From NCBI GenBank assembly GCA_019155205.2, contig JAHNZQ020000227.1, positions 228,600 to 292,599 of the forward strand: a stretch of 64,000 bases of DNA, written 5' to 3'. Position 1 is the stretch's first letter. Each line of letters begins with the position of its first letter. Of the stretch, positions 12,013 to 55,178 are shown piece by piece. Position numbers and translations under genes: made by a program. The notes below the pieces were generated by a model that saw only the letters and a program-made list of their open reading frames with translations, was not told where the DNA came from and made no database searches. Source of the DNA: Gracilaria vermiculophylla. Taxonomy: Eukaryota > Rhodophyta > Florideophyceae > Gracilariales > Gracilariaceae.

Positions 12013-12365
12013 GCTTGAGATGCGCAGCGCTTCCGGATGGCAACGACCGTTGAAGAAGAACGGTGTACCAAGGTGGCAGCGCGATGTGATGAGCTGCGTT
12101 GGAGATATGAGGCCATGCTCTCTCACTCATGCATTCCTGAATGGACACAAAGTGAACCCTTCACAGCAATAAAAAAACATGCATGCGCTCTCCGTACATG
12201 AATGGCGCAGCGCGCGACGCGCGAAGGCACCCGTCCGAAATGCATGACCCAGCGCAATTGCAAAATAATGACGGGGCTTGTTTCGTCTCCCCATCGCGTA
12301 CGCGGCAGCGGGTGTTGTCGCCGTGGCTGGCTCTCTCTCATAATTACCCGCCCCATTGCATCGCC
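12013..12365. promoter_or_regulatory. Shared divergent promoter region (PsbP-family / CENP-B-like)
   Basis: 353 bp between the two start codons of divergently transcribed genes. Open frames extend into it from both sides, but it shows no domain sequence. I see no clear TATA box. Confidence 0.4.
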
Positions 12366-14753
12366 ATGAGAAACACTTTGAATCAAGGACAGCGCAAGCT
12401 GCTTATTGAAGAATATCATCGCCGCTCACGTGCCGGTGAGCCATCTTCACAAAACACCCTAGCAGAATGGGCCGCTCAGAAGTTCAACCTCCAGCAGAAA
12501 CCCAGTCAGGCGACTATCTCGCGCCTGCTCAAGAACAGACTCAGCATCTCTAAGTCCAGAGCGCCGGACAGCGCCAAACGAGCGGCTGTTCCCAAACAAC
12601 CGGCGCTTGAAGACGCCCTTTTTTCCTGGGTTGTTGACCAGAAAGTTCAAGGCGGTCGCGTGACAAGCGGCACCGTCAGGGATTTCGGAAGACGCCTGTT
12701 AAAGCACGTGAATGAAAAGCTCCCGGGCGGCAGACACTTGGAGTTTCGTTTTTCCAATGGCTGGATGGAGAAGTACAAGAAGAGGTATGGGCTAAAGTTT
12801 TGGCGATCAAACGAAGGGCACGACGACGAACGCGATGAATGTGTACTTCAACAAGGTTATCCCGCTTTTGTTCGAAAGCTATCTGCCTTCAAGGATGACG
12901 ATATTTGGACTGCCGCTGAATTCGGTGTTCAATATCGTATAAATCCTGACTCTAGTATTTCTACTACAATGGGTCAAGATGAAAACAAGATGACTGTTCT
13001 GGCTTGTTGCAACAAGAGTGGTTCAGAAAAATACCCTCTCTATATCATTGGAAAGAGCTCCACAAGCTTTTCGATAGACGAACAAACAATGAAGGATATC
13101 AATTTTGAATACACCTCCAACATTAGAGCGTGGATGACGGCCAAACTTTTCTTCCACTGGCTCCACTCTTTCGACGCTTTCATTGGTAAAAACCGAGAAC
13201 GAAAGGTGTTACTGGTATTGAATTCATGTAGTGCTCATGGAAATCATGAGACGGTGCCTTTGTTGAAGAACGTTGATATCTTATTCTTACCATCCACTTG
13301 TATGGCAAAGACGCTCGCCATGGAATGTGGAATCACATCCCTTCTCAAGCTGGCGTTTAAAAGACAACAGCTGTTTAGCGTTCTCGATGGCGTTGATCAA
13401 GGCCTCAAAAATGCCTTTAATGTTAATCCAGTTGTTGCCATGAGATGGCTTAGTCATGAATGGATAACACTGCCACCCAACCTGATTCAGAGATGCTGGC
13501 AGCAAAGTTTGGGAAACATCGACCCCGATGATCATCAAGTTCTCGTCGAGAGCAGACGTGAAGAAGCTTATGAAATCAATGAATTGTTGAACGATGTGGG
13601 GAGGGTCTGTAGTGGTGTCAGCATTAGAAGCCTACTTTGTTCACTTGACGATAGTGACTGCATCGAAACTGTCAACTTGGATACCCTTGGTGATTCCGTT
13701 GTGGACCGATTACTTACTGAGAAGATGGACTCATCACCGGCCACTACGCCTCTCAAGATTCCTGTACTACCACCAGTTGAAGAACAGCTTAAGGCTTTCG
13801 CCATTGTCCGGCAGATCTTGGATCAACGAGGTATGACTGACAAAAAGCTTCGGGCAGTTGTTCGTGATGTTCAACGTGAGATTCGTATCGAACTTACTGC
13901 TCAGACCGGCAGAAACACGCTCTTTAGTCTTGAAAGATCCAACCAGTTGCCCCAGAGTATTCAGGCTCGACAAGTCGAAAAAACTCAACACGCACAGCAC
14001 ATTCAACAATCTCCAAAAAGAAAGGCACCTCCTTCGTCTCAGCTGAATTTGCAACCAAATCAATTCCAAAGGTTACGGCCGTCTCCACAGCATCAGCAAT
14101 CCCCAAAATCATCCCAGTCTCACCAGTCTCAAAGTTCTGAGCATTCTGAGAATTCTCAACCCTCAGAACAAACTAAACATGTGCAACGAAGCCATTGTTT
14201 GGAAAAGAACTACCGCACTTCATCTCCCGTTCAAGTTCAGGGTTCAGCTGCTGCATCACTTTTGAGTTGTTCTGCCAGAACCCGTTCAGATGTCAAGAGC
14301 AGTGAGGTTCCATCTTTTGATCACAATAAGATATCAACAGGTATGGAATCAAGAGTATTGGTATCAACAGGGTTGCCGAAAGATTCGGTAATGCAAGTCG
14401 ATTCCCCACAGCTTCAGGGAGAACATGCAAACGTTGGTCCGACTTCCAACGTTCCTATCGCCCCCTCCGACGACGAACGCCAAGTTAGAGACGAAGAAAA
14501 TTTGATATCAACAGAATTGGCGAAAGATTCGGAAATGAAAAGCGATGCCCTGTCGCTAGAGGGTGAACATGCAAATATCGGTCCGAACTCTGATATCCCT
14601 ATCACCCTCTCTGACAACGAACCCCAAATTAGAGACGAAGAATCAACTGCGAGAACTAAAGCAACTGTGCCACACAAAGATATCCAGTCTAGTGAGGAGG
14701 ACATGCAAAGGAAAACGGGTCGCGAATCAGAGAGAGTGTCGGAGATATCATGA
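12366..14753 (+). CDS. CENP-B/pogo-type transposase-derived protein, catalytic acids lost
   Basis: 795 residues from ATG 12366, uninterrupted. Domain order is that of pogo/Tigger transposases and CENP-B: N-terminal helix-turn-helix (LLIEEYHRRS ... SQATISRLLKNR, about residues 10-56), CENP-B-type second HTH (about 80-150, FSNGWMEKYKKRYGLK), then the DDE_1 fold (about 175-400: VLACCNKSGSEKYPLYIIGK, AWMTAKLFFHWL, FLPSTCMAKTL). The three catalytic carboxylates are altered: 'ADE' is AAE (Ala184), the 'LLLDN' Asp is Asn286, and the 'PLDQG' Asp is Glu320 in AMECG. The tail (about 560-795) is disordered, Gln/Ser-rich, with a duplicated 48-residue unit. I see no flanking terminal inverted repeats. Loss of catalysis with a full-length frame suggests domestication as a DNA-binding protein; function is inferred only. 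Confidence 0.85.
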   Translation: MRNTLNQGQRKLLIEEYHRRSRAGEPSSQNTLAEWAAQKFNLQQKPSQATISRLLKNRLSISKSRAPDSAKRAAVPKQPALEDALFSWVVDQKVQGGRVTSGTVRDFGRRLLKHVNEKLPGGRHLEFRFSNGWMEKYKKRYGLKFWRSNEGHDDERDECVLQQGYPAFVRKLSAFKDDDIWTAAEFGVQYRINPDSSISTTMGQDENKMTVLACCNKSGSEKYPLYIIGKSSTSFSIDEQTMKDINFEYTSNIRAWMTAKLFFHWLHSFDAFIGKNRERKVLLVLNSCSAHGNHETVPLLKNVDILFLPSTCMAKTLAMECGITSLLKLAFKRQQLFSVLDGVDQGLKNAFNVNPVVAMRWLSHEWITLPPNLIQRCWQQSLGNIDPDDHQVLVESRREEAYEINELLNDVGRVCSGVSIRSLLCSLDDSDCIETVNLDTLGDSVVDRLLTEKMDSSPATTPLKIPVLPPVEEQLKAFAIVRQILDQRGMTDKKLRAVVRDVQREIRIELTAQTGRNTLFSLERSNQLPQSIQARQVEKTQHAQHIQQSPKRKAPPSSQLNLQPNQFQRLRPSPQHQQSPKSSQSHQSQSSEHSENSQPSEQTKHVQRSHCLEKNYRTSSPVQVQGSAAASLLSCSARTRSDVKSSEVPSFDHNKISTGMESRVLVSTGLPKDSVMQVDSPQLQGEHANVGPTSNVPIAPSDDERQVRDEENLISTELAKDSEMKSDALSLEGEHANIGPNSDIPITLSDNEPQIRDEESTARTKATVPHKDIQSSEEDMQRKTGRESERVSEIS
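14327..14650 (+). repeat. 144-bp in-frame duplication in the CENP-B-like tail
   Basis: The sequences starting at 14361 and 14505 (both near atatcaacag/gtatcaacag) are diverged copies with a 144-bp period, encoding 48-residue units that share GEHAN(V/I)GP and the pattern PI.(P/L)SD(D/N)E; a third partial copy of the first motif starts near 14331. Confidence 0.75.
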
Positions 14754-44237: not shown

Positions 44238-44904
44238 CCTTGTTTCGCTTGGCTGTTTTCTACTCAGTTTAACAGTTCTTACCACCGCTCCTGGCCTGTG
44301 CGCGTCCTACTTTACATATAAGCCGCTCCCCATGGCACGTGGGTGCGTGGGTCAGGCACAAGAAGGCCACTGTGATCCACTTTTGTGCCCCTGCGCTTGT
44401 TTCCGTCGTACACGGTACTCCTTGTAGTACATTAGCAAAGCCATGCGGTTCACCATATTTGGCGCTCTAGCGGGAGACTCATCTGTAAACATAAACATCA
44501 AAAGCTTTTGCGCTGCACTTTCCGTCCGGCGCTGTCGCGGGGGCTTACGTTGTGCATCGATGGAATTGAATTTTTCTTCGTCATGGTGGAGTACGGAGAC
44601 TCGCCGTTGACGGAATTTAAATGCCCAAAACCAGTTGACAATCATTTTGCCCCGCTGCTTGGAACCTTTGAAAATAAGCAAAAATCAGTCTCTCGAAAGG
44701 CTGACATCGGCTGGTCAACAGGTCCTCACACAAACCACACTACCAGTTTAAGCCGCTTCTCGGCTGTTGAGCCTTATCGCCCCTCCCCGCTCCGCCCTCC
44801 GCCCCTCCCCGCCCGTGCCGAAGCATAGCCAAGATTTCCCTGGCAGCGTCAAGCGGGGCGTCCCGGCCTCACAGCGTACTTTTGTAAGAGCCCCGCCCCC
44901 AACG
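44238..44904. other. Intergenic; 5' flank of ArfGAP
   Basis: 667 bp without a recognisable gene; the ArfGAP frame is open back to 44767 but lacks domain sequence there. A weak TATA-like CATATAAG lies near 44315. Confidence 0.4.
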
Positions 44905-46260
44905 ATGGACCCGACGAAGAAGATATTGCGGGAACTACAGATGCGTCCCGAAAACAAAGTGTGCGCGGATTGTGGAACCAAAAACCCGCAGTGGGCTACG
45001 GTTTCATACGGCACTTTCATCTGCCTCGATTGCTCCGGCCAGCACCGGGGGCTTGGCGTTCACATTTCGTTCGTTCGCTCGGTGGGCATGGATAAATGGA
45101 AGGAGTGGGAGGTGAAGCGTATGCAATGCGGCGGGAATGCCAAGTTTGTCAAGTACTGCAAGGAGAACGGCATGCACGGCGCGGAGATTAGCAGCAAGTA
45201 CAATTCTGAGGCGGCGGCGGTATACGCGGCCAAGCTGAAAAGTGAGGCCACTGGAGAGCCGTATCAAGTCCCACCCCCTGCAAATCGCCCGAAACCAAAA
45301 ATGGCCGCTCCGGGATCCTTGGGCTCCACTGGCATGGGTGGAGTCACCACTCTTAGCTCATCTGGAGGGCGCAGAACAAGCGGCTTGGGAATGGGTTCAG
45401 TTGGTGGAAACGGAAACATGAACAGCATGGCAAGTGGCATGGGGTCGAGTATGGGGTCTAGCATGGGATCGGCCATGGGTTCCAGCGTAGGCTCTGGCAT
45501 GGGCAGCATGGGTAACGGGGCCATGGGCACCGGCATGAGTCACAGTACGGGAGGTGCTTATGGGTCTGGTGCACCGCGAATGGGGGGGATCTCTTCCGAC
45601 ATGTGGCATCAGAGCAATGGAAACCCAGCGGCAATGTCGAGCACATCGTCAGCGAGCTACGGCGGAAATGCAAAGAACTCCGGGTTCGGGGGCTTCAGCG
45701 GCTTTGGCTCTCTGGGGTCCAACGCGCCTGCCACGCTGAACAACGTGGGACAGAACCTCACCCGCAATCTATCAAGCATTGCCTCGACTGTGCAAAAGTC
45801 TGATGTAATGGGTCACGCAAGCAAAGCAGCAGCGCAAGCCGGGGGCATGCTATCGTCTTGGTTCACAAATGTATCCACGCAGGCAAACAAGATAATGAAC
45901 GAAAACGACGGACGCCAAGACCTTCGAGCAGGGCTTCGCAGAAATCTGGCCGAGGCACCAGGGGCAAACAGTGCTGGATTCAAAGGCTTTTCATCGGACG
46001 ATTTTGCAAGGAGTTCATACGGAACTAACAACAGCAACTCTAGCGAAACAGTGCCGACAAATCGTACGAATGGTGTATCGTATGCACAAATGAGCTCATC
46101 TTACCAAGCGAATCAGGCTGGAACGACGCAAAGCAGTAATGCGCCCAGCACTGCTGTAGCTGCGGGAAGTGGAAATGCAGGCGAAAACGCGTGGGGTGGG
46201 TTTGACGATGTGCCATCCACACCAAAAGAAACGAGCGATCCATGGGGTGCCTGGAATTGA
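44905..46260 (+). CDS. ARF GTPase-activating protein (ArfGAP1/AGD6-like)
   Basis: 451 residues from ATG 44905. ArfGAPs stimulate GTP hydrolysis on Arf1 and drive COPI coat recycling at the Golgi. The N-terminal zinc finger is complete: [20 protein letters not shown] then [20 protein letters not shown] (C-x2-C-x16-C-x2-C with the catalytic Arg in HRGLG), followed by [20 protein letters not shown]. The rest is low complexity: a Met-Gly-Ser repeat (about residues 180-212), then amphipathic helices of ALPS type (for example [20 protein letters not shown]) that could sense curved membranes, and an aromatic C-terminus WGGFDD...DPWGAWN resembling coatomer-binding tails. It belongs to the ArfGAP1 type rather than those with PH or ankyrin domains. 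The first Met of the homologous region is chosen as start. Confidence 0.93.
45415..45545 (+). repeat. Met-Gly-Ser-coding microrepeat in ArfGAP
   Basis: Imperfect 12-bp units (atggggtcgagt-like) encode [12 protein letters not shown] steps. They are in frame and probably length-variable. Confidence 0.8.
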
Positions 46261-48336: not shown

Positions 48337-51306
48337 ATGGCCGCCCTCCCAGACACTATCGCCCGTGTGAGTGACTCCGTGGCGACTATCCCCACGTTGG
48401 ATCGTACGCCCTCTCACTCCAGAAAGCATCTTCCGGCCGTTCATCACAACCGCCCATCTCCCACCCAACTACCGCCCCGTCGTCTCCCCGAGCCGCGCTT
48501 CTCCGATGGCGAGCACCCGCGCAGAATAGCCAACCTGGCCGCGCTGGCCACCCAGCGCTTGCGTCCGCGCGAACCGCTGCACACCGTGCGCTACATTGCG
48601 CAGGTTGACATCGACGGCTGGATGGTGCGGCGCACCAAGGTCGGACAGAAGATCAATATGTTTGTCGTGCTCGAGTCCACCACGCTTTCCGTCCTTCGCA
48701 GCAGGTCCGCGCCTCCTCGCTACCAGGTCAACGTGCGTAGCACCCGCGTCAACGTGCACCTCCCGGAGCGCGAGATGCACATCCCTCTCCAAGGCGCCGT
48801 TGGCGGCAAGGATCGCTTTCTTCGTCTCCACATTGCCAGCGAGCAAGATGCACACCGCTGGAAGTACGCGCTGGACAATGCTGTCAACAGCCACATAACC
48901 GACTACTACACCTTGGACAAGACGCTGGGAAGCGGCGCGTATGGAGACGTAGTGTTGGCGTACGATGTGCGCACAAACGAGAGGCGCGCCGTCAAGATCA
49001 TCAAGCGCGGAAGGAACATGAAGAGCCAGGAGCATCTTGAGAGGGAAATGCAGGTCATGAAGAGTATTTCACATCCTAACATCGTCAGCACCTATCAAAT
49101 CTTCGACCTCAAGGAGACTATCTACATTGTCATGGAATACATGCCTGGTGGTGACCTGTTTGATTTTGTGGCACAATACGAGTGCCTTCGCGAGTCTCAG
49201 GCCAGCCAGATTATACGCTCCTTGTTCACTGCCGTCGAGTTTCTTCACCGCCATTCCATTGTTCATCGCGATCTTAAGCCAGAAAACATCCTCTGCGTCA
49301 ATCGCGGCTGGCCGTTACAGATAAAAGTCACCGATTTCGGGTTTGCCAGCTTCCTTGATCCTTCAAATGACCAAGACAACACGATGCGCACCCAGGTCGG
49401 AACCGCCTACTTCATGGCACCGGAGATTATTCTAAACAAGGGGCACGGCCCGCCGGTTGACTCATGGGCTTGCGGTGTTATTCTTTACACCATCCTCACA
49501 GGAAGGCTTCCCTTCGCGGGTAAAAACACCAAGCAGTACTTTGATAACGTAATTGAAGGGCGCATTCTTTTCCCCAATGTGTTGTGGAAAGGCATATCGG
49601 AAGACGCAAAGAGTCTTGTGAAAGGGCTTCTCAACGTCGACCCAAACAAACGCCTAACGCCCCTCGGGGCTTTACAGCACAAATGGGTCATGGCATCTCA
49701 CGCTCCGGAGAATGCAATTCGGCGAGACAGGTCAAACCTCCATTCGAAGCGACGCCGCCTATTCAAGGCACGCAAGGCAATTATTGCAGTTGCTATGGCA
49801 AACAAGTTTAAAGCTACGATACCCCAGGTTGTTGATAAAGTAGGCGACTCCACGAAAAAAGTTGTAAATGGTATCGAACATGGCGTGAAAAAGACCGCAG
49901 ACGGAGTAGGAGAGGGAATCAAGAAGACCGCTCACGGCGTGAAGAAAGTTAGCGAAAATATTGGGGGAGGGACCAAGAAGGTTGCCGAAGAGATAGGAGA
50001 AGGAACGAAGAAAGTTGCAGATGGAATAGCCGGTGGAACAAAGAAAGTTGCCGAGGGCATCGGCACTGGTGTGAAGCTGACTGTTGATGGTGTTGAGAGT
50101 GGTGCAAGAAAGGTTGGCGAAGGTATGAAGAAGACTGGGGACGGTCTTGGCTCTGCAGCTAAGAAAACAGCGGAAGGGGTCAGTGTAGGCCTACGAAAGA
50201 CAGGCGAAGGCTTGGAGGTTGGCATAAAAATGACTGCCGGTGGGGTGAAGAAGACTGCCGATGGAGTTAGCCATAGTTTGAAGAAGACTGGAGAAGGCAT
50301 TGGCGGTGGGATCAAGAAAACTGCCGAGGGCGTGAAGAAGACCGCTGACGGAGTGGGATATGGACTCAAACGCACAGGGGAGGGTATTGGCGGTGGTCTG
50401 AAAAAAACTGCAGATGGAGTCAGTCATGGTTTGAAAAAGACCGCAGACGGAATGGGTCAGGGCCTGAAGAAGACTGGGGGAGGTATTGGGGATGGTCTGA
50501 AGAAAACGGCTGATGGTGTTGGTCATGGATTCAAAAAGACTGGGGAAGGCTTCAAGCGTGGAGTGAACATTGTGCGACGAGATCGTAGTAGGGACGGGGA
50601 CACTGAACAAAATATTCATTCCACATCAAGTCAATCGGGTTCTGTCCCTCATCCTGCGAGTAAGAGGCCACTGTTCAGAAGAAGAGTGAGGACATCACAG
50701 TCTATAAGCAACGTATCTGATTCTGATTCTCAACGACAGGACGAGAATACAGAGCTTCCCTTGCCTGATGTGGAGAGCGCACCGCTTTGCCGTGTTCTCG
50801 ATGATAAGGCTGCGTTAGCACCGAACAGATCGACGCTCTCACAAGGAACTGAAACGTCTTCTGACACAAAACGGTCGAGTTCCGAATACTACTCTGCAGT
50901 GGAAGAACATAGTTCCACAGAGGAAGGCTGGTCAACATCACTTAGTGTTTGTAAGGAATCCAGACAAGGGCCGTGTGTGAGCGAAATTAGGAGCGACGAG
51001 GGCCGCCTGAGTGGTGCCTGCCAGGCGAAACAGGGGATGATTCCGTTGGATACGGGGGCGAAGCGCCAGAGCCCACATCCTTCGATCAACAAGTTTTCAA
51101 ACGCGTCTACGTTCACTTGTGGGACGAACAGACCAAACTTGCCACCGCTAAGTGGCATCACGCTGGGGTTCTCGGACGATCGGATGACTGAGCGTTTGGA
51201 CAGTGAAGGGATGTTTTCCACTGCACTTGGCCCATCGTCGAGCCTGCGAAGGACGGCAGCGTTGCTTCTGACACCCACGCAGCCGTCCGCGCTCGATACG
51301 CAATGA
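48337..51306 (+). CDS. PH-domain Ser/Thr kinase (CaMK-like) with 11-mer amphipathic repeat tail
   Basis: 989 residues from ATG 48337. Order: disordered N-terminus; PH-like domain (about 85-188: AQVDIDGWMVRRTKVGQKIN, ... EQDAHRWKYALDNAVN); kinase domain (about 190-455) with LGSGAYGDV, AVKII Lys220, EYMPGGDLFDFV, HRDLKPEN (His310), DFG (Asp333), MAPEII and RLTPLGALQHKWV, all residues expected for activity; a basic linker; then about residues 495-745 a run of some twenty 11-residue repeats of pattern G-(L/I/V)-K-K-T-(A/G)-(D/E)-G-(V/I)-x-x, occasionally 7 or 18 long; and a Ser-rich tail. The repeat resembles the KTKEGV repeats of synucleins and the 11-mers of group 3 LEA and perilipin proteins, which form 11/3 amphipathic helices on membranes. 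A lipid-surface kinase is inferred. The kinase type is CaMK/SNF1-like; no calmodulin site identified. Confidence 0.88.
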   Translation: MAALPDTIARVSDSVATIPTLDRTPSHSRKHLPAVHHNRPSPTQLPPRRLPEPRFSDGEHPRRIANLAALATQRLRPREPLHTVRYIAQVDIDGWMVRRTKVGQKINMFVVLESTTLSVLRSRSAPPRYQVNVRSTRVNVHLPEREMHIPLQGAVGGKDRFLRLHIASEQDAHRWKYALDNAVNSHITDYYTLDKTLGSGAYGDVVLAYDVRTNERRAVKIIKRGRNMKSQEHLEREMQVMKSISHPNIVSTYQIFDLKETIYIVMEYMPGGDLFDFVAQYECLRESQASQIIRSLFTAVEFLHRHSIVHRDLKPENILCVNRGWPLQIKVTDFGFASFLDPSNDQDNTMRTQVGTAYFMAPEIILNKGHGPPVDSWACGVILYTILTGRLPFAGKNTKQYFDNVIEGRILFPNVLWKGISEDAKSLVKGLLNVDPNKRLTPLGALQHKWVMASHAPENAIRRDRSNLHSKRRRLFKARKAIIAVAMANKFKATIPQVVDKVGDSTKKVVNGIEHGVKKTADGVGEGIKKTAHGVKKVSENIGGGTKKVAEEIGEGTKKVADGIAGGTKKVAEGIGTGVKLTVDGVESGARKVGEGMKKTGDGLGSAAKKTAEGVSVGLRKTGEGLEVGIKMTAGGVKKTADGVSHSLKKTGEGIGGGIKKTAEGVKKTADGVGYGLKRTGEGIGGGLKKTADGVSHGLKKTADGMGQGLKKTGGGIGDGLKKTADGVGHGFKKTGEGFKRGVNIVRRDRSRDGDTEQNIHSTSSQSGSVPHPASKRPLFRRRVRTSQSISNVSDSDSQRQDENTELPLPDVESAPLCRVLDDKAALAPNRSTLSQGTETSSDTKRSSSEYYSAVEEHSSTEEGWSTSLSVCKESRQGPCVSEIRSDEGRLSGACQAKQGMIPLDTGAKRQSPHPSINKFSNASTFTCGTNRPNLPPLSGITLGFSDDRMTERLDSEGMFSTALGPSSSLRRTAALLLTPTQPSALDTQ
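49838..50570 (+). repeat. 33-bp tandem repeat array (synuclein/LEA-like 11-mers)
   Basis: About twenty diverged 33-bp units, e.g. around ggtctgaagaaaacggctga at 50493, coding for GLKKTADGVxx. Third positions differ widely between copies while the protein pattern is kept, which points to selection on the peptide. Confidence 0.88.
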
Positions 51307-51450: not shown

Positions 51451-51954
51451 TCAGAATGGACCCCACTTGAGCTTACGGCCGCCGATCACGTGAAGATGAA
51501 GGTGATACACGCTCTGCAGCCCGTCCTTGCCGTTATTGATGAGGACGCGATAGCCGGCCTGTAGGTTTTCCAGTTGGGCAACCTTGGCCGCGGTCAGCAT
51601 CAAGTGGCCCAGCAGCTCCTTGTCACCCTCTTGGGCCATGGAGAGCATGGGTATACGGCGCTTGGGGATGACGATGATGTGGACCGGGCTCTGCGGGTTG
51701 ATGTCGTGAAAGGCAAGGCTGTGGTCGTCCTCAAACACGATGTCGGCGGGGATCTCCTTGGCGAGGATTTTGTCGAAGACTGTTGGCTGCGAGAAGTCTG
51801 CCGGCGGCGGCGCGCCCTGCTCGGCGGCCATCATGCGCACGGCGCTGGCGGGACGGGAGCGACTTACGCGAAGGCCGGCGCGCGCGCACGAGCTCAGCAG
51901 GAGCATCGCCGCGGAGGAGCGCTGCAACGAGGCGGGCGCGCCGACGAACGCCAT
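51451..51954 (-). CDS. HINT1: HINT histidine-triad nucleotide hydrolase with organelle presequence
   Basis: 167 residues from ATG 51954. HINT proteins hydrolyse nucleoside phosphoramidates and aminoacyl-adenylates. The domain is complete: TVFDKILAKEIPADIVFEDD, HDINPQSPVHIIVIPKRRIP, LINNGKDGLQSVYHLHLHVI and GGRKLKWGPF, with the catalytic triad motif H-L-H-L-H-V-I. The N-terminal 45 residues (MAFVGAPASLQRSSAAMLLL..., Ser/Arg-rich, no acidic residues) are not part of the family and begin with the red-algal 'MAFV' transit motif, so plastid targeting is likely; mitochondrial targeting is an alternative. A second in-frame start (MMAAEQGAPP) could give a cytosolic form. It is divergent from PRP5, with 263 bp between starts. 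Confidence 0.92.
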   Translation of the reverse strand: MAFVGAPASLQRSSAAMLLLSSCARAGLRVSRSRPASAVRMMAAEQGAPPPADFSQPTVFDKILAKEIPADIVFEDDHSLAFHDINPQSPVHIIVIPKRRIPMLSMAQEGDKELLGHLMLTAAKVAQLENLQAGYRVLINNGKDGLQSVYHLHLHVIGGRKLKWGPF

Positions 51955-52217
51955 GGCCCGCCGCCGACGTCCGCGCGCGCGCGCGCACGCGCCGCGCTGC
52001 GCTGCCAAGTCGGCCGCCGCGATTTGCGCCGCCAGTGCATCTACCAGCGAACCCAAATCGCGCGGCGCTGCGATGCGGCATCGCGCAGCCGAACGCGCGC
52101 CGTTGAGTTTGCGGCCGCCCCCCGCCCGCCCCCCTCTCCCCCTCCCACCGCCCACCCCCGCGCGCCGCGCGCGCCGTCGCCGCGCCGCCTAGCAGCACGC
52201 AGCCATCTTCGCGCGCC

Positions 52218-55178
52218 ATGCAGCCCGCACGCCAGAGACGCTCGCGCTTCGGTAGCGTGGCGAGACCGCCGCACTCGGCTGCCCGCCCCGCGGCTGCGCG
52301 CGGTGCCGTCGCCACACCGCCCGCCAGTGCGCCCATCGTCCTCTCTACCTTCAAGCGTGGTAAGTCTCAAAAGCGTCGCCAGCGAGCAGGGGGCATAGCC
52401 GCCCCTTCTGCACCTGACTTGGAAAGTAACGACCGACATCGCTCCCCCGACCCTCCGGCCCCTCGCCTCTTCAGCAACGACGAGCAAGAAGAGCATCAAG
52501 AGCAACAAGAGCGCGAGCACCAACCGAGTCCGCTGCCGCAATACCACTACAGTACGTACGCGAGAACACCTAAGAAACGCCCGCTATTCCTTCGCAACGC
52601 TGAAAGAGCAGCTGAATCTGATCCATCAGTTCCACCCATCCGAACAACCAACAATCCAGATGATGCCGTTGATCCCTTGGAAAACTTCATGAAAAATGTG
52701 GACAGTGAACTCAACGTGAAGAGGCACCGTGTAGACGCCCAGCCACACAACAGTAGTGACACTTCCGACGATTCTACTGATGACGACGCCGATACGAGCA
52801 GAGCAGCAAAGGCCCCGAAACGGCGTGTGTACGAGAAGGTGGATCACTCTAAAATTCACTACCCTCCTTTTCAGAAGAATCTCTACATCGAGGTTCCTCA
52901 CATATCAAAAATGACCCATGCACAAGTCGCAACTCTGCGTCGTAAGCTGGGAAACATAAGGATTCGCGGCAAACGATGTCCTCGCCCAATAACCGACTGG
53001 GCGCAATGTGGCTTATCCGCCTCCATCCTTAGTATTCTGGAGCGCCTTAACTTTCACACTCCTACCGGCATTCAATCCCAAGCTATCCCATGCATCATGA
53101 GCGGCCGCGATATCATTGGAATAGCCCGCACCGGCTCTGGTAAAACGCTTGCATTTCTGTTGCCAATCTTTCGTCATATAGCCCTCAGGCAGAGGGCGAT
53201 GCCGGGGGAAGGCCCTTCTGCGCTCATCATTGCGCCCACTCGCGAACTTGCCATCCAAATCTACGGTGATGCAAAGAAGTTTTCAACTGCCATCGACATT
53301 CGTTCCGTGTGTGCCTACGGCGGGAGTGGAGTCAAAGACCAAATAGCAGAACTCAAGCGTGGTGCTGACCTGGTCGTCTGTACACCCGGTCGCATGATCG
53401 ACCTTCTTGCAATGAATGGCGGCCGTATCACCAATCTTTTTCGCGTAACGTTTGTGGTTCTCGACGAGGCTGACCGCATGTTCGACATGGGATTTGAACC
53501 ACAGTTAACGCGGATTGTAGAGAACATTCGCCCAGATAGACAAACCGTAATGTTCTCAGCAACCTTCCCACCTCAAGTAGAACGACTTGCTCGGAAAATA
53601 CTCACACAGCCAGTGGAGATTATGGTCGGTGGTAATTCGGTGGCGGCATCCACAATTGACCAACATGTTGAAGTGCGCAGCGAAGAATCGAAGTTTTTCC
53701 GATTGCTGGAGCTCCTGGGGGTATGGTATGAAAAGGGGTCCACTCTTGTGTTTGTTGATCGTCAAGACAATGCCGATAGGATATTTCGAGACTTGTCCAA
53801 GGCTCGTTACAAGTGTTTGTCATTGCATGGCGGTATGGACCAGGCTGATAGGGACTCCACAATAGTGGATTTCAAAAATGGGGATGTGAAAGTGCTCGTG
53901 GCAACGAGCGTCGCTGCTAGAGGCTTGGACGTAAAGAACTTGACTCTGGTTGTAAACTACGATGTTCCGGGTCACTACGAAGATTATGTCCACCGTGTGG
54001 GCAGAACAGGTCGCGCAGGAGCAGCAGGCACAGCATATACTTTCATAACTCCAGACCAGGAAGCTTATGCCGCGGATATGGCCAAAGCACTGTCTACAAG
54101 CGCAAGAACTGCCGCTGAGCAAGAAGCTCCGATTGGAGACGAAGAAGCCGCGAAAAAAGCCGGAGACGAGGCAGCGGAAGCGGCTGTTCCGGATGAATTG
54201 AAAGCTCTCGTAGAGAGTTTTGAAAGGAAACGCAGAGCCGGGATCGTGAAATATGGAGCAAGTTCTGGATACGGTGGTCGTGGGTTTAAGTTTGACGAAA
54301 ATGATGAATACACCGCCGCTCAGAAAGCCTTGCGAAAGATGCAAGCCAAGCAGTACGGACTGGACGGTGATGAAGGAGATGATGACGACGAAAGAAAACG
54401 AGAAGATGAAAGCATCGACGATGATGATGACGAAAACGATGATGACGAGGACGGCATTGTCCGCATCAATAAGTCTGTGAGTGCCAATGGCATTCAAAAG
54501 GAAAGCGGGACATCCTTTATTTCATCTCTGTCTGGTTTGATACCGGATCGTCCGCTTGCCGCTTACGAAGTACAGAATCTCTTAGCAGAAGCCGTTAAGC
54601 GGGCTGAGGCATCTGGCAATGCCAAAAAGTTGGACGAAAAAGCTCGTAAAGCTCTCGTGGCAACAGCGAAAGCTCGTGTGTTATCAATTGTCAGCCTTCG
54701 AAATAAGACAGCAGAAGCGCAGAGGCGAAATCCAAGTGGTCTTACTCAAAGTGCAAGCCTCGCAACCTCGAAGTATATCGGCAGCAGGTCCCAGACTCCT
54801 GGAAACACCGGGCTATTGGATGCTGACGGAGAGAACATTGGAAACGAGTATGCTATGAAAAACAATGGTTCAGAGCCACGTTTTGCATGCGAGCTGGAAA
54901 TTAACGATTACCCACAACACGCTCGGTGGCAGGTCACAAGGAAGAATTCTCTGAACGATGTCGAAGAGTTCACTGGATGTGTGGTAACAACCAGAGGAAA
55001 CTTTTACCCAGTGGGTAGAAACCCTCCTCGTGGAGAAAGAAAGTTACATTTCTTGATAGAAGGCCCTACCAGACGAGCTGTGAAGATGGCGAGACGTGAC
55101 ATTAGACAGAAACTAGAAGAAGCCTCTGACGTCTCAAGACCATCCGACCATCAGTACTCGAAATACTCGGTTGTGTGA
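52218..55178 (+). CDS. PRP5: PRP5/DDX46 DEAD-box RNA helicase
   Basis: 986 residues from ATG 52218. PRP5/DDX46 remodels U2 snRNP during branch-site recognition in pre-spliceosome assembly. The family-specific entry is present: VDHSKIHYPPFQKNLYIEVP and CPRPITDWAQCGLS. Helicase motifs follow in order: Q motif PTGIQSQAIPCIMSGRDIIG, motif I ARTGSGKT (304-311), PTRELA, GG, TPGR, DEAD (416-419), SAT, then domain 2 with FVDRQDNADRIF, ATSVAARGLDV and HRVGRTGR. The N-terminus is basic and acidic by turns; the C-terminus has an acidic stretch DDDDENDDDEDG and a conserved tail. The gene has no introns itself. Its presence agrees with the conserved CTAAC branch sites seen in this window's introns. Confidence 0.95.
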   Translation: MQPARQRRSRFGSVARPPHSAARPAAARGAVATPPASAPIVLSTFKRGKSQKRRQRAGGIAAPSAPDLESNDRHRSPDPPAPRLFSNDEQEEHQEQQEREHQPSPLPQYHYSTYARTPKKRPLFLRNAERAAESDPSVPPIRTTNNPDDAVDPLENFMKNVDSELNVKRHRVDAQPHNSSDTSDDSTDDDADTSRAAKAPKRRVYEKVDHSKIHYPPFQKNLYIEVPHISKMTHAQVATLRRKLGNIRIRGKRCPRPITDWAQCGLSASILSILERLNFHTPTGIQSQAIPCIMSGRDIIGIARTGSGKTLAFLLPIFRHIALRQRAMPGEGPSALIIAPTRELAIQIYGDAKKFSTAIDIRSVCAYGGSGVKDQIAELKRGADLVVCTPGRMIDLLAMNGGRITNLFRVTFVVLDEADRMFDMGFEPQLTRIVENIRPDRQTVMFSATFPPQVERLARKILTQPVEIMVGGNSVAASTIDQHVEVRSEESKFFRLLELLGVWYEKGSTLVFVDRQDNADRIFRDLSKARYKCLSLHGGMDQADRDSTIVDFKNGDVKVLVATSVAARGLDVKNLTLVVNYDVPGHYEDYVHRVGRTGRAGAAGTAYTFITPDQEAYAADMAKALSTSARTAAEQEAPIGDEEAAKKAGDEAAEAAVPDELKALVESFERKRRAGIVKYGASSGYGGRGFKFDENDEYTAAQKALRKMQAKQYGLDGDEGDDDDERKREDESIDDDDDENDDDEDGIVRINKSVSANGIQKESGTSFISSLSGLIPDRPLAAYEVQNLLAEAVKRAEASGNAKKLDEKARKALVATAKARVLSIVSLRNKTAEAQRRNPSGLTQSASLATSKYIGSRSQTPGNTGLLDADGENIGNEYAMKNNGSEPRFACELEINDYPQHARWQVTRKNSLNDVEEFTGCVVTTRGNFYPVGRNPPRGERKLHFLIEGPTRRAVKMARRDIRQKLEEASDVSRPSDHQYSKYSVV

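Follow-up and report, generated by a model that had tools for sequence, protein, structure and literature searches.

Locus and domain layout

The window analysed here, a stretch of 64,000 nucleotides from Gracilaria vermiculophylla, carries on its forward strand the gene of a multidomain protein kinase, hereafter P0001, with the following features.

48337..51306, + strand: single open reading frame of 989 aa, from ATG at 48337 to TGA at 51306; PH-like domain, CaMK-type kinase, basic segment, 11-residue repeat array and tail
48589..48888, + strand: PH-like domain, aa 85-184; Pfam PH match below the cutoff, profile match in 20 of 38 family members, AlphaFold strands and helix
48907..49689, + strand: Ser/Thr kinase domain of the CaMK group, aa 191-451; Pfam, PDB relatives, invariant catalytic residues
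49717..49818, + strand: conserved basic segment behind the kinase, aa 461-494; weak alignment to the autoinhibitory/calmodulin-binding region of CaMKI/CaMKIV
49813..50571, + strand: 11-residue repeat array, aa 493-745; 253 aa, 23 cores, four 7-residue slips
50572..51303, + strand: C-terminal tail, aa 746-989; low confidence in the model, motifs recurring in relatives

The initial annotation of this DNA had given the frame as 48337..51306, which is exact, and its reading of a PH-like domain, a CaMK-type kinase and an 11-residue repeat array in one protein is confirmed. The N-terminus of P0001 aligns from residue 1 with P0002-P0006. Separate genes, or a spliced junction between kinase and array, can be ruled out: both parts lie in one frame, as expected if they share an mRNA, and both are present in P0006, the 993-aa frame of a relative, which is recognisable by name as a Trinity transcript.

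The Pfam PH profile matches P0001 at E=0.0022 (aa 91-183), below the Pfam cutoff for this protein; within the family, 20 of 38 members match it with E-values no higher than 0.1, the best being 8.4e-08. In the full-length AlphaFold model, which was built on a 38-sequence alignment, the region is predicted as eight short strands at 85-165 with a helix (169-184) at their C-terminal end, pLDDT being mostly 82-94 per 10-residue block with a dip to 63 at 151-160. Beta strands capped by such a helix are the secondary structure of a PH-like fold. A Foldseek search with the whole model returned only kinases among the best 50 of at least 2000 matches and is uninformative for the PH domain.

The kinase domain is matched by Pfam Pkinase at E=1.4e-75 (aa 191-451). 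The catalytic residues G198/G200/G203, K220, E237, H310-R311-D312, N317, D333-F334-G335 and A361-P362-E363 are intact, and all are invariant over the 38 sequences of alignment A1, which was drawn from P0001-P0041 and leaves out P0014, P0022 and P0040 (the last without a kinase domain). Among the PDB matches listed, the closest structures are CDPK and CaMKI. With its complete domain, catalytic residues and nearest CaMK/CDPK relatives, P0001 is a CaMK-group kinase; AlphaFold models the domain, like the PH-like region, with good confidence, and the activation loop (335-355) and the remainder of the protein with low confidence. The name 'calcium-dependent protein kinase' of the Gracilariopsis chorda record was rejected, as no EF-hand family is among the 14 Pfam families listed for P0001 (E up to 10, a scan in which HMMER filters drop most matches above E ~0.1).

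Downstream of the kinase, the alignment to 1a06 and 4fg9 extends to chain residue 313, with few identities within the post-kinase segment itself, and AlphaFold places a low-confidence helix at 473-494. The segment (461-494) is thus weakly CaMKI/IV-like and a candidate autoinhibitory/calmodulin-binding region. Motifs of the C-terminal tail common to relatives are SSEYYSAVEEHSSTEEGW-like and RPNLPPLSGITLGL-like. An LIR/Atg8 reading of the tail motif EYYSAV was dropped, since the hydrophobic residue that such a motif generally requires is not kept in P0007, P0012 and P0015.

Several other features were seen in the window. A HIT-domain protein (2e-28) is encoded at 51451-52155 on the minus strand and a DEAD-box helicase with a KH domain at 52218-55178 on the plus strand; on the other side, at 44767-46260 (plus strand), lies the gene of an ArfGAP-domain protein (7.1e-34), another membrane-surface protein. 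A 144-bp tandem repeat (14358-14642; two copies, 77% matches) falls within an open reading frame at 12183-14753.

Repeat sequence and helical register

Within the array, identity at a lag of 11 residues is 0.409 versus 0.123 in shuffled sequence (z 14.1; 0 of 2000 shuffles as high). The 11-residue period given in the initial annotation therefore stands, while its count of about 20 repeats rises to 23 cores by a seven-position pattern and four 7-residue slips, unmentioned before, have to be added. The core consensus is mostly G-(L/V/T/I)-K-K-T-(A/G)-(E/D)-G-(V/I)-x-x. Four of the 22 core spacings are of 7 residues, rather than 11, following the cores at 529, 591, 631 and 660. In composition, the array is 25% Gly, with a mean hydrophobicity of 0.097, a net charge of +19, a hydrophobic fraction of 0.29 and a charged fraction of 0.30.

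Treated as one helix, the whole 253-aa array reaches a hydrophobic moment of 0.432 at 99 degrees, a value that 0 of 1000 shuffles attained; a finer angular grid gives 0.439 at 98.9 degrees. Its hydrophobic stripe is single and phase-continuous. In an angular profile computed without any motif, one face carries V/I/L/T and then A/G, both flanks are lined by Lys and the opposite side by Asp/Glu, an arrangement shared with lipid-surface helices. The earlier reading would have fallen had an amphipathic face at 11/3 periodicity been absent; moment and profile both show one. The array has an amphipathic register at about 98-99 degrees, a feature of 11-mer helices on lipid surfaces.

The slips do not disturb this register. 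Across P0001 and its relatives, 229 of 355 core spacings are 11 and 56 are 7, and the rest are larger sums of the two except for two spacings of 19, so that sums of 7 and 11 account for 353/355. These spacings are not independent events, because the 7-residue slips are partly inherited; the four slips of P0001 sit at different places. A looser repeat pattern, applied to a 43-protein set, also yields spacings of 4 and 26. Units of 7 and 11 keep the stripe in register because each nearly completes whole helical turns. When the four 7-residue units of P0001 were swapped in silico, the moment was 0.439 for length 7 and 0.430 for length 11, and the weakest values among lengths above 7 were those for 9 (0.239) and 13 (0.285). 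The drop was smallest at 4, 11 and 15 and largest at 9, and it was graded, with 8 and 14 retaining 0.39. The spacing pattern suggests that an uninterrupted stripe along the helix has been selected for, be it lipid-facing or coiled-coil.

In the full-length AlphaFold model, residues 495-989 are under pLDDT 50 and the array is almost all coil. Modelled alone from single-sequence input, it was predicted to form helices at 3-121 and 142-251 (pLDDT ~75) with a strand-like break between them, the mean pLDDT of the five models ranging from 38 to 75.

A conserved kinase family

The initial annotation had suggested looking in red-algal proteomes for the same PH-kinase-11-mer order. A search with the repeat region, which scored the 7998 candidates sharing most words, matched 39 proteins, 38 with a kinase domain and one (P0040) without. 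A second search, from a divergent relative, gave 36 matches, 31 of them already in the first; the new ones are P0123-P0127, with a kinase domain in P0123 and P0124. The best named relatives are from Gracilariopsis chorda (P0002), Gracilaria domingensis (P0003) and Agarophyton chilense (P0005), all of which we take to be Gracilariaceae, and named relatives carry generic-kinase labels in their records. From a kinase search (best 120 of 6988 matches listed), the only others used were P0041, P0042, P0043, P0044, P0046, P0047 and P0054.

A 53-row tree, rooted at its midpoint and with long branches flagged (P0123 and P0124 were submitted and are not among the rows), unites 41 proteins, P0001 included, in one group with support 100/99; all seven own-genome kinase paralogues tested fall outside this group. 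Measured across 43 proteins, the array is present in 39 of the 41 clade members, where its moment peaks at 98-99 degrees (none of 200 shuffles per protein as high) and its length ranges from 62 to 277 residues. P0041 has an array stretch of only 18 residues by the pattern used, and in P0043 the post-kinase motif was not found. P0123 and P0124 also peak at 99 degrees, but their lag-11 z is only 1.3 and 0.9. These comparisons place the gain or retention of the array in a single lineage of a PH-CaMK-like family.

The architecture of P0001, for which the initial annotation knew no counterpart, is hence that of a conserved family, and it is a new domain combination of known kinds of parts. To our knowledge, no other protein kinase has a perilipin/synuclein-type array. 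No description of a kinase with such an array was found among the open-licence papers listed, nor was the P0001 protein found in titles and abstract starts of those listed on Gracilaria lipid droplets or on red-alga amphipathic helices and lipid droplets.

Searches of the alga's own genome covered a 44.8-Mb assembly of 27 contigs. The kinase search listed 47 matches, P0001 itself and split matches included. Loci L002-L008 are related CaMK-type kinases without the array, several with a PH-like part: the match covers the PH part in L002, L003, L004, L005 and L008 and starts downstream of it in L006 and L007.

Possible roles of the array

Synuclein repeats have the core KTKEGV, which the K-T-x-(D/E)-G-V of P0001 resembles; synucleins differ in their other architecture, P0001 having 23 cores. 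Neither perilipin nor synuclein profiles are among the 14 Pfam families listed for P0001. In excerpts of the perilipin literature (PMC5889406), perilipin 4 (Plin4) and perilipins 1-3 likewise have a long array of 11-mers, interpreted as a 3-11 helix, and share with P0001 a weakly hydrophobic face, few aromatics and a net positive charge. Moments published in Table 1 of that source are 0.257 for Plin4, 0.30 for alpha-synuclein, 0.35 for Plin3 and 0.48 for CCT-alpha; the mean 33-mer moment of the P0001 array, 0.44, is above the first three and near CCT-alpha, the HeliQuest values and those of our own script being roughly comparable. By the same excerpts, Plin4 consists of 29 33-mers without insertions or deletions, whereas the P0001 array mixes 7- and 11-residue units, and the latter is more charged (0.30 vs 0.15) and has fewer hydrophobic residues (0.29 vs 0.35). 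A 132-aa Plin4 fragment, shorter than the 253-aa array of P0001, is described there as reaching a fraction of lipid droplets (PMC5889406). Unlike in perilipins, the array of P0001 is fused to a kinase and a PH-like domain.

CTP:phosphocholine cytidylyltransferase alpha (CCT-alpha), as portrayed in excerpts of two papers, is like P0001 an enzyme followed by an 11-mer amphipathic-helix region (PMC7665022, PMC5889406); its autoinhibitory helix becomes a membrane helix, and membrane binding lifts the inhibition (PMC7665022). It differs in having an unrelated catalytic domain and an array about four times shorter (59 vs 253 aa). With CaMKI and CaMKIV, P0001 has in common the kinase and, by a weak alignment, the post-kinase segment. 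A PH domain with a CAMK kinase has been reported in the oomycete Phytophthora (PITG_06259, PITG_08008), and the available excerpt of that report mentions no 11-mer array (PMC3019232).

Weak Pfam matches to lipid-surface families occur in the family, namely ApoLp-III in 24/38 members (best 1.2e-09), Senescence in 13/38 (best 2.6e-06) and Apolipoprotein in 11/38 (best 7.3e-05); the ApoLp-III match of P0001 (aa 491-622) is below the Pfam cutoff. The senescence domain of ERD7 is, according to an excerpt of the source, necessary and sufficient for lipid-droplet targeting (PMC8079945). These matches argue little for lipid, because families without a tie to lipid also match repetitive arrays weakly, here the suprabasin repeat (10/38, 5.4e-06) and GBP_PSP (3/38, 1.6e-12).

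The design is conserved and its repeat array resembles helices of the lipid-coating type; P0001 is therefore probably a kinase working on a lipid surface. It is likely, in our judgement, that P0001 is a red-algal CaMKI-like kinase held on such a surface by its PH-like domain and long 11-mer amphipathic helix. We infer lipid binding, and a lipid-surface role, as initially proposed, is the best reading. The N-terminal PH-like domain and the array behind the kinase would then tether the enzyme to lipid from both sides. In solution the Gly-rich array is probably disordered; a Gly content of 25% speaks against a helix that is stable in water. Contact with a lipid droplet, or with an anionic membrane rich in packing defects, would turn it into a helix with some 3.65 residues per turn, whose V/I/L/T/A side chains enter the lipid while Lys stays at the interface. 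As to which surface, lipid droplets are, speculatively and by way of Plin4, the leading candidate, and anionic membranes would fit a net charge of +19 equally well.

Activity regulated by lipid, on the analogy of CCT, is a speculative extension. Because the array starts directly after the CaMKI/IV-like segment, its folding on lipid might, again speculatively, help to detach this segment from the kinase, the part played in CCT by the M domain. A kinase switched directly by the lipid surface, in which the helix, on folding at lipid droplets or stressed membranes, draws an autoinhibitory-type segment from the active site and the output reads lipid-surface availability, possibly with Ca2+/calmodulin, is conceivable but doubtful.

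The main rival to lipid anchoring is oligomerisation: the array would be a hendecad/heptad coiled coil joining kinase molecules without lipid contact. The hendecad core comprises positions a, d, e and h, to which the more hydrophobic 11-mer positions 2, 5, 6 and 9 correspond, and coiled coils with stutters show mixtures of 7 and 11, so that the register evidence fits both structures alike. However, the array is a quarter Gly, which occupies positions 1 and 8 in 20/23 and 21/23 units (position 8 being partly fixed by the pattern), the would-be core is often Thr, Ala or Gly with about two bulky aliphatics per 11 residues, and Lys on both flanks with acid opposite is a better fit to a lipid helix. 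We regard the coiled coil as unlikely. An LEA-like protectant or flexible charged spacer, keeping the kinase soluble or functional in dehydration or salt stress, would suit the low mean hydrophobicity, the charged and Gly-rich composition and the unstructured array of the full-length model. Yet a spacer is unlikely to hold one stripe in register across four 7-residue slips, or to do so in 39/41 clade members, and no LEA family, LEA group 3 included, is among the 14 families listed for P0001 or among 25 of 31 listed for the 38 members. The link to LEA proteins and dehydration drawn in the initial annotation is accordingly not supported, and we give this explanation little credence.

A recent product of DNA slippage without function might also be suspected, as the array contains a DNA tandem repeat (33-bp period, 49941-50054, 72% matches). 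Codon identity between cores is nevertheless 0.70 at position 1 and 0.73 at position 2 against 0.345 at position 3, where 0.255 is expected from composition. With third positions near random while the first two agree, the array is old and conserved at the protein level, and it persists even where identity in the PH-kinase part has fallen as low as 49%, as in P0025. Slippage is thus contradicted and hardly credible.

If P0001 does sit on lipid, red algae would have a kinase physically located at a lipid surface. The array lengths of its relatives form a natural series for how much 11-mer helix targeting needs, and through its mixed 7- and 11-residue units the family also offers a natural experiment on register.

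An array search of the alga's own genome returned P0001 itself, the locus L010 weakly (2.7e-4) and one more match at E=0.44. L010 (G000:C12, near 599385-600002) has a different 11-mer array of about 237 aa with VKEGAEKAKDS-type repeats; its N-terminal part looks coiled-coil by eye, and the array ends near a Cys-Cys C-terminus. It has an Apolipoprotein match of 1.2e-06, below the Pfam cutoff, and its array has a moment of 0.27 at 98 degrees, which none of 300 shuffles reached.
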